Shown here piece after piece: positions 44,915 through 47,457 of a stretch of 64,000 nucleotides of DNA (position 1 is its first letter; each line of letters starts with the position of its first letter). The stretch spans positions 1,364,001-1,428,000 of the forward strand of contig JACPDN010000006.1 of the NCBI GenBank assembly GCA_016183985.1, in the 5' to 3' direction. Source of the DNA: Pseudomonadota bacterium. Lineage in GTDB: Bacteria > Pseudomonadota > Alphaproteobacteria > Dongiales > Dongiaceae. The notes beneath the pieces were generated by a model, which searched no databases, had not been told where the DNA came from, and saw nothing but the letters and a program-made list of their open reading frames with translations. The position numbers and the translations under genes were made by a program.

Positions 44915-45589
44915 ATGTCCCCCTATCTTGGCCCTTTGCGGGCTTTCACGGCGGGCTTTGTCGATACCACCGGCTTCGTCGCCTTGTTCGGTCTGTTCAC
45001 CGCGCATGTGACCGGCAACTTCGTGCTAATCGGCGCGTCGATTGCCGAGTTTCATGGCGGAATCATCGCCAAGCTGATCGCCTTGCCGGTCTTCATCATC
45101 GTCGTCGCGCTGACTCATCTTTACGTGATGCAGCGCCAGCGCCGAACGGCTGGTCCGGTCGCCTCCATTACGCTGTTCGAGGGCCTTTTCCTCGCGGCCT
45201 TCATGGCAGCCGGTCTGTCGCTGACACCGGACGATCATGCCGACAGCCTGCCGGCAATCGCCACCGGCATGCTGGGTGTTGCCGCCATGGCGATCCAGAA
45301 CGCCGGCGCGCGATCGGTCTTTGCGGCGCTTGCACCCACCACGGTGATGACCGGCAATGTGACGCAGATCGTCATCGACACGGTCGACCTGATCACCACG
45401 CCGGCCAAGGCTACCGACGCCAAGGCGCGGTTGAAGAAAATGCTGCCGCCGGTCCTGGCTTTCGCAATCGGCGCCCTGGCCGGCGGCTTGGGTTATGTGC
45501 ATGTCGGTTTCTGGTCGCTCCTCCTGCCGCTCCTTGCCGTCATGACGACATGGCTGTTACTGCGCAATGCCGCGCGGCAACCCGCTTGA
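44915..45589 (+). CDS. YoaK-family (DUF1275) membrane protein
   Basis: The 224-residue protein has six membrane segments and the family opening AFTAGFVDTTGFVALFGLFTAHVTGNFVLIG. A second characteristic stretch is AMAIQNAGARSVFAALAPTTVMTGNVTQ. Its function is unknown; it often occurs near hydrolases. Its last 50 bases overlap the 3' end of the opposing ThrRS-like gene. Confidence 0.9.
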   Translation: MSPYLGPLRAFTAGFVDTTGFVALFGLFTAHVTGNFVLIGASIAEFHGGIIAKLIALPVFIIVVALTHLYVMQRQRRTAGPVASITLFEGLFLAAFMAAGLSLTPDDHADSLPAIATGMLGVAAMAIQNAGARSVFAALAPTTVMTGNVTQIVIDTVDLITTPAKATDAKARLKKMLPPVLAFAIGALAGGLGYVHVGFWSLLLPLLAVMTTWLLLRNAARQPA

Positions 45590-46757
45590 TCCAGGCGCCG
45601 GCTTCGCGCAAGGGGAGATCGGTGCGCACATCGTCGGCAAGTGTCCGCAGGCTGACGCGGCACTTCTCCGCTTCCCGCGCGCCGACGACGCCCAGGACCG
45701 GCACGCCACGTTCGCGCCAGCTGACGATCTTCCGCGGCAGCGTTTCGTTGCTGGCGTCGATGGCGACCCGGTAGCCTTCGGATTCAAGCTGGATCGCCGC
45801 CTCCTCGGCATAGCCCAGGTACTGATCCGAGACGGCGGCGATCAAGACCTGGTCAGGCGCCAGCCACAGCGGCAAACGCCCCTGGCAATGCTCCAGCAGC
45901 ATGCCTATGAAGCGCTCAAGACTGCCGAGCACCGCGTGATGGACCATGATCGGCACCGCGCGATTGCCGTCTTCGTCGATGTAATGGGCGCCGAGTTTTT
46001 CCGGCAGCACCAAATCGAGCTGCACCGTGCCGCATTGCCAGCGGCGCCCCAAGCGATCTTCCAGGCTGAATTCGAGCTTCGGCCCATAGAACGCGCCCTC
46101 GCCCGGTTGAGCGACGAAATCGAGGCCGGCACCGCGCGCCGCGTTCTGCAGCACGCGTTCGGCCGTATCCCATAATTCCTCGCTGCCCTCGCGCTCTGCC
46201 GGCCGCGTCGAGAAGGCGACGCCGAAATTGGCAAAACCGAAATCGCGATAAACTGCGCGCAACAGCTGCGAAAAGCGCTTCACCTCGTCAATGATCTGGT
46301 CCATGCGGCAGAGCACATGCGCATCGTCCTGCACGAAGGCGCGCGTGCGCATGAGGCCCATCAGCGCGCCCGAAGGCTCGTTGCGATGGCAGGCGCCAAA
46401 CTCGGCGTACCGCAAGGGCAGATCGCGATAGGACCGCAGGCGCGCGTTGAACACCTGCAGATGCCCCGGGCAGCTCATCGGCTTCACCGCGAATTGCCGC
46501 TCGCCATCCTCGAGTGCAAACATATTGGGGCCGAATTTCTGCCAATGGCCGCTCTTCTCCCATAGGCCACGCGCCAGGATCTGCGGCGTCTTGATCTCCT
46601 GGAAGCCGGCGGCTTTCATGCGGCGGCGGATGTAATCCTCGATCAGGCGGTAGAGCGCCCAACCCCTGGGATGCCAGAAGACCATGCCCGGCCCTTCTTC
46701 CTGGAAGTGGAAGAGGTCCAGCCTCTGGCCAATACTTCGATGATCGAACGCGTCCAT
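45540..46757 (-). CDS. Minimal threonyl-tRNA synthetase paralogue (no TGS or editing domain)
   Basis: At 405 residues it is far shorter than standard ThrRS (about 640) and lacks the N-terminal TGS and editing domains. The class II core is complete: motif 2 region EFGACHRNEPSGALMGLMRTRAF, zinc ligands in MSCPGH, QDDAHVLC and MVHHAVLGS, and motif 3 SLERFIGMLLEH. A C-terminal anticodon-binding domain follows (LIAAVSDQYLGYAEE). The usual Arg in the MIHR segment is His here. It presumably charges tRNA-Thr without editing, or acts on another acceptor, alongside a full-length ThrRS elsewhere (not seen). An attenuator-like leader precedes it. Confidence 0.88.
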   Translation of the reverse strand: MDAFDHRSIGQRLDLFHFQEEGPGMVFWHPRGWALYRLIEDYIRRRMKAAGFQEIKTPQILARGLWEKSGHWQKFGPNMFALEDGERQFAVKPMSCPGHLQVFNARLRSYRDLPLRYAEFGACHRNEPSGALMGLMRTRAFVQDDAHVLCRMDQIIDEVKRFSQLLRAVYRDFGFANFGVAFSTRPAEREGSEELWDTAERVLQNAARGAGLDFVAQPGEGAFYGPKLEFSLEDRLGRRWQCGTVQLDLVLPEKLGAHYIDEDGNRAVPIMVHHAVLGSLERFIGMLLEHCQGRLPLWLAPDQVLIAAVSDQYLGYAEEAAIQLESEGYRVAIDASNETLPRKIVSWRERGVPVLGVVGAREAEKCRVSLRTLADDVRTDLPLREAGAWIKRVAARHCAVTAMSS

Positions 46758-46804
46758 GTCAGTCTCCGTGCGTCTTGAACTCTGGAACAGACGGACGGAG
46801 GCAT

Positions 46805-46837
46805 AATGAAAAAGCCCCGTCCGGAACCGGCGGGGCC
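46805..46837 (-). terminator. Attenuator terminator ahead of the ThrRS-like gene
   Basis: On the minus strand GCCCCGCCGG and CCGGACGGGGC form a GC-rich stem (one bulged base) around TT, followed by five T then C (46813-46808). It lies between the leader peptide stop at 46866 and the synthetase start at 46757, where termination would switch off the downstream gene. Confidence 0.85.
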
Positions 46838-46865
46838 TTGGGTAGTCGTCAGATCGCGCGTTAAA

Positions 46866-46946
46866 TCAGCACAAGCCAACACCCCTCGGCCGCCGGTCGG
46901 CGGTCCAGGTAGTGGTTACTTGTTGATGTTTACGCATCTGGCTCAT
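46866..46946 (-). CDS. Threonine-rich leader peptide (transcription attenuator)
   Basis: A 26-codon frame begins with ATG at 46946 and ends with TGA at 46866. Codons 11-15 read ACC ACT ACC TGG ACC: Thr-Thr-Thr-Trp-Thr. It is followed by an intrinsic terminator and then the ThrRS-like gene. The DNA after the Thr codons contains GGCGG and GGGG segments that could pair with the GC-rich 5' arm of the terminator to make an antiterminator. Ribosome stalling at Thr codons when charged tRNA-Thr is low would let transcription continue. No clear ribosome-binding site is visible, which weakens the case a little. Confidence 0.7.
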   Translation of the reverse strand: MSQMRKHQQVTTTWTADRRPRGVGLC

Positions 46947-46980
46947 GGCGTTGGAGACTAAGGGTGGCGGCGGCGGCGTG

Positions 46981-47457
46981 TCAAGCTGCCGCACCCCGAT
47001 AGGCCGCCTCGATGGTGGGCAGATCGAGCTTGATCATGCCCCAAACCGCTTGCAGCACGCGGTTGCGCCTGGCCTCGTCCGGGTCGTTCAGCATGTCTTC
47101 GAGTGCCGCCGGGACAACCTGCCAGGAGAGGCCCCATTTATCCTTCACCCAGCCGCAAGCCTGTTCCCTGCCACCGTTTTTCAGAATCGTATTCCAGACG
47201 CGGTCGATCTCCTTCTGGTCTTCGCACCTGACCCAAAGCGAGACGGCTTCGGTGAGCTTGAAGGTTGGGCCGGCATTCAGTGCGCGATATTGCTGGCCGT
47301 CCAGCGTGAAGAGAATGCCATAGAGATTTTTCGCGCGGTCGAAATGCATGATGCTGTCGATCTTCGAGTTCGGAATGAGGGCGGTGTAGAACGTCACCGC
47401 TTCCTCGGCATTGTCATCGAACCACAGATGCGTGGTGACCTTCTGCGAACTGGCCAT
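46981..47457 (-). CDS. VOC family protein, PhnB-like
   Basis: The 158-residue protein has the glyoxalase/bleomycin-resistance fold with the PhnB opening VTTHLWFDDNAEEAVTFYTALIPNSK and the end segment GWVKDKWGLSWQVVPAAL. Such proteins are sometimes labelled 3-demethylubiquinone methyltransferase, but that assignment is not trustworthy. The reaction is unknown. It follows the SRPBCC gene on the same strand with a family A repeat between. Confidence 0.88.
   Translation of the reverse strand: MASSQKVTTHLWFDDNAEEAVTFYTALIPNSKIDSIMHFDRAKNLYGILFTLDGQQYRALNAGPTFKLTEAVSLWVRCEDQKEIDRVWNTILKNGGREQACGWVKDKWGLSWQVVPAALEDMLNDPDEARRNRVLQAVWGMIKLDLPTIEAAYRGAAA

Follow-up and report, generated by a model that had tools for sequence, protein, structure and literature searches.

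We analysed a window of 64,000 nucleotides of alphaproteobacterial DNA (family Dongiaceae; contig JACPDN010000006.1), that is, the whole stretch that includes the locus described here. On its minus strand, a gene for a short threonyl-tRNA synthetase (ThrRS) is preceded by a small, threonine-rich open reading frame (ORF) and a GC-rich hairpin. The parts of the locus, in 5' to 3' order, are as follows.

46981-47457, minus strand: upstream gene, same strand as the short ThrRS gene, ending at 46981
46979..46984, minus strand: -35 element TTGACA of a promoter predicted from sequence
46956..46961, minus strand: predicted -10 element TTAGTC, 17 nt from TTGACA
46866..46946, minus strand: leader peptide ORF MSQMRKHQQVTTTWTADRRPRGVGLC, 26 codons, stop included
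46902..46916, minus strand: control codons ACC ACT ACC TGG ACC (Thr Thr Thr Trp Thr)
46890..46903, minus strand: hairpin 1:2, CCGCC-GACC-GGCGG, overlapping the last Thr codon of the leader
46890..46896, minus strand: antiterminator 5' element CCGGCGG
46827..46833, minus strand: antiterminator 3' element CCGCCGG, within the 5' arm of the terminator
46809..46837, minus strand: intrinsic terminator GGCCCCGCCGG-TTCC-GGACGGGGC plus TTTTT (stem 46837-46814, T5 46813-46809)
45540..46757, minus strand: short ThrRS gene (thrS2), 405 amino acids, catalytic core and anticodon-binding domain

The locus thus has both the control-codon cluster and the intrinsic terminator of a leader-peptide attenuator. An earlier note on this DNA had described a 26-codon leader with the run Thr-Thr-Thr-Trp-Thr, and this leader is present at 46946-46866 on the minus strand, with the run at codons 11-15 (ACC ACT ACC at codons 11-13, TGG at codon 14, ACC at codon 15). 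The GC-rich terminator with its T5 follows as claimed, but 28 nt rather than 29 separate it from the leader stop; 51 nt lie between the T5 and the ThrRS ATG. The observation of a leader and terminator ahead of a short ThrRS gene is therefore confirmed. The spacing of the promoter elements predicts that transcription starts about 0 to 4 nt 5' of the leader ATG (46946). Because TTGACA and TTAGTC sit so near this ATG, the leader mRNA is predicted to be almost leaderless. A generic promoter scan reported no promoter. TTGACN is found 35 to 39 nt 5' of the leader ATG in 19 of 20 tabulated relatives, the remaining one (L034) having TTTACA, and the -10 element TTAGTC is the same in all three copies from the window's genus.

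Pfam found only tRNA-synt_2b and HGTP_anticodon in the 405-residue protein. Neither the TGS nor the editing domain that ThrRSs usually have at the N terminus is present, as the earlier note had proposed from the translation. The protein scores 464 bits against the NCBIfam model thrS, for which the cut-off is 384. The zinc ligands C334, H385, and H511 are invariant in all 21 short ThrRSs that were compared, as are R363, Q381, D383, Y462, and R520. E458, another active-site position, is present in the window but varies among the short enzymes (E in 17, D in 3, Q in 1). By its class II core, its anticodon-binding domain, and its zinc ligands, the protein appears to be a bacterial ThrRS. Its closest solved relatives are ThrRS chains in the PDB, among them 1EVK, the Escherichia coli enzyme (PMC11252418).

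The same genome also encodes a full-length ThrRS, which is 54% identical to the short one in the core. In a tree with 52 full-length cores, the 21 short enzymes formed one group (100/100), a result that carries the tool's warning of long branches meeting. A quick tree to which two betaproteobacterial short enzymes were added still placed all 23 in one group. Full-length ThrRSs from the window's family fell with named alphaproteobacterial ones, and beta- and gammaproteobacterial full-length enzymes formed a separate group. Searched with a loose cut-off, all 16 genomes with a short ThrRS that are at least 90% complete also have a full-length ThrRS. G245 and G349, searched at E 1e-150 only, are outside these 16, and in the incomplete genomes G400 (72%) and G427 (78%) only the short ThrRS was detected.

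Several substitutions mark the short enzymes as a group. In the anticodon domain, position 583 is R in 52/52 full-length enzymes and V, A, H, or L in 21/21 short ones, and position 589 is K or R in full-length enzymes and G, A, or H in short ones. Beside the zinc ligands, R512 (next to H511) is replaced by H in 20/21 and N333 (next to C334) by S in 21/21. Together with the variable E458 and the long branches in the tree, these changes raise the possibility that the attenuator is real but that the short protein serves a different purpose by activating threonine or some other amino acid, its recognition of tRNA having weakened. Truncated synthetase paralogues with other tasks are known (PMC4787780). 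We nevertheless think such a role unlikely. The short enzymes retain E600 and R609 along with the zinc ligands and the residues of the catalytic core, and a Thr leader suits a product that charges tRNA(Thr). Further, proteins encoded in the flanks match in only 3 pairs across 13 groups, two of these pairs lying inside one subclade, so the short ThrRS gene sits in varied places and no shared pathway shows. Aminoacylation of tRNA(Thr) is the putative function that we favor for the short enzyme.

A search of 385 genomes sampled from the window's class with E values up to 1e-150 gave 12 genomes with a match, of which 11 were short ThrRSs and one was full-length (L040); family-level searches contributed nine further short ThrRSs. 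The short form occurs in 3 of 17 genomes of the window's own family (an order-level search returned the same 17 genomes) and in 9/18, 2/39, and 4/10 genomes of three other families. Another, L192, was first found by a covariance model and is present in one of the four genomes of its family. A search of a plasmid collection added three candidates from Burkholderiaceae; the two that were opened (L224 and L225) are both short, and the third, from Caballeronia SBC1 (H3), is outside the set. We therefore opened 23 short-ThrRS genes, 21 from the window's class and 2 from Betaproteobacteria. A genome_contigs scan with the window ThrRS recognised no short ThrRS among the best 80 of 581 relatives: 79 of the 80 have an open frame of at least 120 residues 5' of the core, and L114 lies at a contig end. 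Viral contigs held no relative of the window ThrRS in a search that reaches close relatives only. Four further candidates (L142, L148, L166, and L168) were dropped as contig-edge or full-length genes.

We then asked whether the leader and terminator amount to more than chance. The terminator hairpin alone (-20.6 kcal/mol) is ordinary for its composition (z -0.94; 38/200 shuffles were equally stable). A consensus terminator scan of the window flagged an overlapping stem at 46828-46813, but it returned 6 sites against 3.2 expected by shuffling, and so this match is no evidence alone. The simple hairpin test in our survey of small ORFs missed the terminator of this leader, whose stem has a bulge. 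Scanned with Rfam, the whole window gave no match at the gathering score, the Thr_leader and T-box families included. The entire leader, on the other hand, is more stable than its shuffles (z -4.0, 0/200), and at least four Thr within five codons occur in only 3 of 496 ATG-started ORFs of 15 to 45 codons in the window, the leader ORF among them.

The decisive evidence comes from conservation. At 23/23 opened short-ThrRS genes we found a Thr-codon leader, a GGCGG located 3' of those codons, and a terminator that is nearly the same throughout, with leader peptides of 24 to 29 amino acids and the terminator 23 to 29 nt 3' of the leader stop. Retention of the Thr cluster and terminator in orthologues was the test that the earlier note had set beforehand, and both were kept in every leader. 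In the two same-genus orthologues, whose proteins are 94% and 89% identical to that of the window, promoter, leader, and terminator are all kept. Among these copies, the leader ORF shows silent third-position changes (CGT/CGC, GTA/GTT, ACT/ACG) with the Thr run preserved. GGCGG is invariant in nucleotides yet is read in two leader reading frames (16/20 and 4/20 relatives), as expected of an RNA element. These data bear on the alternative that assigns the terminator to the upstream gene (46981-47457) and treats the Thr-rich ORF as accidental. The same-strand gene does end close by, at 46981, and the hairpin alone is unexceptional. However, in L004 the sequence 5' of the promoter diverges and conservation begins at the promoter, and the retention of leader and terminator in 23/23 loci refutes a chance ORF in practice, leaving it a negligible probability.

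The details of the leader vary. Its Thr codons range from nine consecutive ones in L224 to the sparse ILTVATIKVT of the L037 group (5 genes), and five leaders (L037, L122, and L124-L126) have merely three or four, dispersed. The T run is poor in the terminators of several relatives, and apart from its Thr run the leader peptide varies from group to group.

On the strength of these sequence comparisons, we consider it very probable that the leader is a ribosome-mediated transcription attenuator, which would make an auxiliary, editing-free ThrRS when Thr-tRNA is scarce. Transcription would begin at or immediately before the leader ATG. When Thr-tRNA(Thr) is plentiful, the ribosome would pass the Thr codons and reach the stop, and hairpin 1:2 (CCGCC/GGCGG) could form. 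A ribosome at the leader stop would also mask the flank that would otherwise lengthen the antiterminator. The terminator would then form, and RNA polymerase would halt before thrS2. With too little charged tRNA(Thr), the ribosome would pause on the Thr codons and mask CCGCC; the freed GGCGG could pair with CCGCCGG in the nascent 5' arm of the terminator, and thrS2 would be transcribed. The short ThrRS, which has neither a TGS nor an editing domain, would act as a reserve enzyme if the housekeeping ThrRS, or the supply of threonine itself, failed.

The pairing at the center of this proposal is consistent with the sequence, CCGCCGG (46827..46833) being the perfect complement of CCGGCGG (46890..46896). 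Every leader is able to fold into hairpin 1:2, an antiterminator (2:3) that joins GGCGG and its flank to the terminator 5' arm and the flank of that arm, and the terminator (3:4). We examined the switch by folding, codon-position, and duplex tests on 20 relatives (L192, L224, and L225 were left out), using a nascent model in which the transcript was cut before the 3' arm of the terminator and a ribosome was placed on codons. When the ribosome occupied the initial Thr codon of the cluster, the antiterminator had a probability above 0.5 in 20/20 relatives (mean, 0.98), compared with 8/20 for nascent transcripts without a ribosome. In nascent transcripts, then, ribosome stalling at the control codons is predicted to favor the antiterminator. 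With the ribosome at the leader stop, the antiterminator still exceeded 0.5 in 11/20, more than the model wants. In complete transcripts, even with a stalled ribosome, most relatives have the terminator as their prevailing structure at equilibrium (mean probability, 0.74-0.91), and without a ribosome L123 and L125 do not favor the terminator. The comparison of folds with and without a ribosome that the earlier note had suggested thus bears out the stall effect in nascent transcripts but not, for the most part, in complete ones. Because the terminator mostly wins at equilibrium, the switch must be kinetic, acting during transcription. The window leader is among the better ones in predicted switching: a ribosome in the middle of the cluster gave 0.85 for the antiterminator and 0.14 for the terminator, and one at the stop gave 1.00 for the terminator.

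The placement of the Thr codons can be set against the same model. Among 100 Thr codons, 75 sit 10 to 4 codons 5' of GGCGG, positions at which a ribosome permits the antiterminator in 17-20 of the 20 relatives. Another 18 are at -3 from GGCGG, where a stall would cover GGCGG and the antiterminator is permitted in none. Ribosome positions 5' of the Thr codons likewise permit it in 13-17 of the 20.

The native antiterminator duplex was stronger than the mean of GGCGG-preserving shuffles in 20/20 relatives and singly significant at 5% or better in 8/20; the window, at 35/300, is among the other 12. In a species-swap control, the native duplex was above the mean swap in 10/13 groups and beat 66% of swaps on average. 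This control is modest: it was strong for L036, L123, and the L037 group, which points to clear co-evolution in some groups only, and the window reached only 52%. The competing stem of GGCGG with the preceding segment (hairpin 1:2) folds in 20/20 and is also visible by eye in L192 and L224, being weak in L225. Its closing pair changes on both sides, appearing as A-U, C-G, or U-A depending on the relative. RNAalifold recovered the terminator alone, with little covariation. The core of the predicted antiterminator, which corresponds to the pairing of GGCGG with the terminator 5' arm proposed in the earlier note, thus appears solid, and its extension is partly supported. Overall, these comparisons support that note's interpretation of the leader as an attenuator.

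Leader-peptide attenuation of synthetases is already known, as is a predicted thrS Thr leader in Streptomyces lividans. The use of attenuation for a synthetase, which the earlier note called notable for a short ThrRS, thus has precedents in pheST, trpRS1, hisS*, and the S. lividans leader. In E. coli, pheST has a leader-peptide attenuator (the pheM leader) before a synthetase operon that encodes the housekeeping PheRS, with no paralogue. Bacillus subtilis thrZ encodes a full-length ThrRS and differs from the window system in its control, a T-box that senses uncharged tRNA directly, with no leader peptide. Streptomyces trpRS1 is reportedly switched on when indolmycin blocks the housekeeping enzyme, and its product is said to be antibiotic resistant. 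As a second ThrRS gene with a leader terminator (PMC3997798), thrZ seems to be the closest known system in function. The closest in logic is probably trpRS1 of Streptomyces coelicolor, an auxiliary gene placed under ribosome-mediated attenuation by the title of Vecchione and Sello (2010; listed in PMC4787780). Both trpRS1 and thrS2 add a second synthetase to the housekeeping one and place it under an on-demand attenuator whose control codons specify the enzyme's amino acid, but trpRS1 encodes a TrpRS in an actinobacterium, whereas the window system has a proteobacterial ThrRS with neither TGS and editing domains nor a known resistance residue.

The parallel with trpRS1 suggests a different trigger for the same switch, namely, a ThrRS inhibitor such as borrelidin or obafluorin, with the short ThrRS as an inducible antibiotic-insensitive enzyme. 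Its patchy distribution over the five families counted above, its occurrence in Betaproteobacteria, its coexistence with a normal ThrRS, and regulation through tRNA charging would all fit this trigger. Against it, the known resistance positions taken from PMC11252418 and PMC4389257 are kept (G463 and H309 in 21/21 short enzymes, L489 in 20/21); other positions of the borrelidin site were checked in part. We regard an inhibitor as a possible but rather improbable trigger, and we favor scarcity of charged tRNA(Thr) as the condition to which the switch responds.

Other precedents share single features with the window system. The thrL ORF before S. lividans thrS is likewise a predicted threonine leader peptide on a leaderless transcript, but it has 18 amino acids and two Thr, its authors call termination unclear, and the account of it in PMC8079986 describes no short paralogue. 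For hisS* and hisZ of bacilli, a leader-peptide attenuator is predicted before a synthetase paralogue (PMC2965389), but for histidine and in Firmicutes. The second ThrRS of the Anabaena T1/T2 pair is stress induced and edits poorly (PMC4787780); it differs in being zinc responsive and in having an editing domain, though an impaired one. In Sinorhizobium meliloti, the RNA of the alphaproteobacterial attenuator rnTrpL starts at the leader-ORF ATG (PMC7298713), but it serves tryptophan biosynthesis and has a 14-amino-acid leader. The near-leaderless layout shared with rnTrpL raises the further possibility that our locus mainly yields a terminated small RNA and a leader peptide with functions in trans, like rnTrpL/peTrpL. 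The variation of the leader peptide between groups, its Thr run apart, speaks against this, and we consider it very unlikely; the 23 loci, having been picked by their short ThrRS (L192 by the RNA model first), give no basis for saying that such leaders are absent from other sites. A switch acting in cis on thrS2 remains our preferred reading.

Among the literature matches listed, none described a short ThrRS under a Thr-leader switch. As far as we found, what is new is a clade of editing-free ThrRSs with its own conserved switch and the spread of that clade to Betaproteobacteria. This conserved ThrRS case joins the few synthetases under leader-peptide attenuation and offers a compact proteobacterial counterpart of thrZ and trpRS1. 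It also raises the testable question of why a ThrRS without a proofreading domain should be induced exactly when threonine is short. There are signs that the short ThrRS has been transferred together with its switch, including to Betaproteobacteria. It is conceivable, though we consider it improbable, that promoter, near-leaderless leader, attenuator, and editing-free ThrRS move as a unit between Alpha- and Betaproteobacteria as a portable emergency cassette. Since the enzyme lacks an editing domain and its synthesis would be confined to times of Thr-tRNA scarcity, it might load serine on tRNA(Thr) during starvation. If so, such regulated mistranslation would keep ribosomes moving under threonine starvation.

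Thr leaders are not confined to the short ThrRS genes with which the earlier note had linked them, as full-length thrS genes of other families also carry them. None of the 14 full-length partner genes scanned (of 15 listed) has a Thr leader with a terminator. In genomes without a short ThrRS, full-length thrS has a Thr leader in 0/12, 1/5, 0/4, and 6/22 cases, by family; one of the last six is doubtful, and the match at L145 begins inside an open frame. Small Thr-rich ORFs precede 16 of 136 full-length thrS genes scanned, and in 10 more the upstream sequence was too short; those at L081, L096, and L111 look spurious. Eight full-length thrS genes with a Thr-rich leader (L130, L143, L144, L149, L156, L165, L211, and L042) were all found by the covariance model. 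Upstream of betaproteobacterial full-length thrS at L050, L061, L084, L109, and L112 lies a small ORF, MTPRT(T/S)T.., with a T-rich stretch after it, possibly a separate Thr attenuator. On two Acetobacteraceae plasmids (L226 and L227; thrS annotated only in the latter), a ThrRS frame adjoins a Fur-type regulator and folE, an arrangement recalling zinc-limitation control.

The covariance model built from the short-ThrRS leaders (R1) matched 114 of 385 genomes at E values up to 0.01, many of them by the terminator alone; it does not find L050, L112, L002, L019, L020, L226, L227, or L228. The next 29 matches opened comprised 15 asd loci, 3 dapA loci (one beside asd), 2 ThrRS genes (one short, one full-length), 2 related ABC ATPases, and 8 without an assigned gene. 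The asd (aspartate-semialdehyde dehydrogenase) leaders (L191, L193, L195-L197, L200, L203, L204, L206, L208, L210, L212, L214, L216, and L217) contain Thr as well as Lys codons, although sparsely in L206 and L212, which fits the shared Lys/Thr pathway. In Sinorhizobium, a small ORF that contains six Thr and three Lys codons and precedes a gene labelled "aspartate dehydrogenase" has been published (PMC10117765); it may correspond to these asd leaders. One RNA layout thus seems to serve different amino acids in this class, before asd, dapA, and full-length thrS. The model thereby ties the short-ThrRS switch to an attenuator design that appears to be shared within the class, with other control codons.

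Similar leaders with terminators lie directly before dapA at L215 and L218, with no clear control codons, and the same type precedes the related ABC-transporter ATPase genes at L205 and L219, again with no clear control codon. In L194, L199, L201, L202, and L207, MTR or MSR is encoded just 5' of the hairpin (MTRSGG in L199 and L202, MSRSGG in L207).
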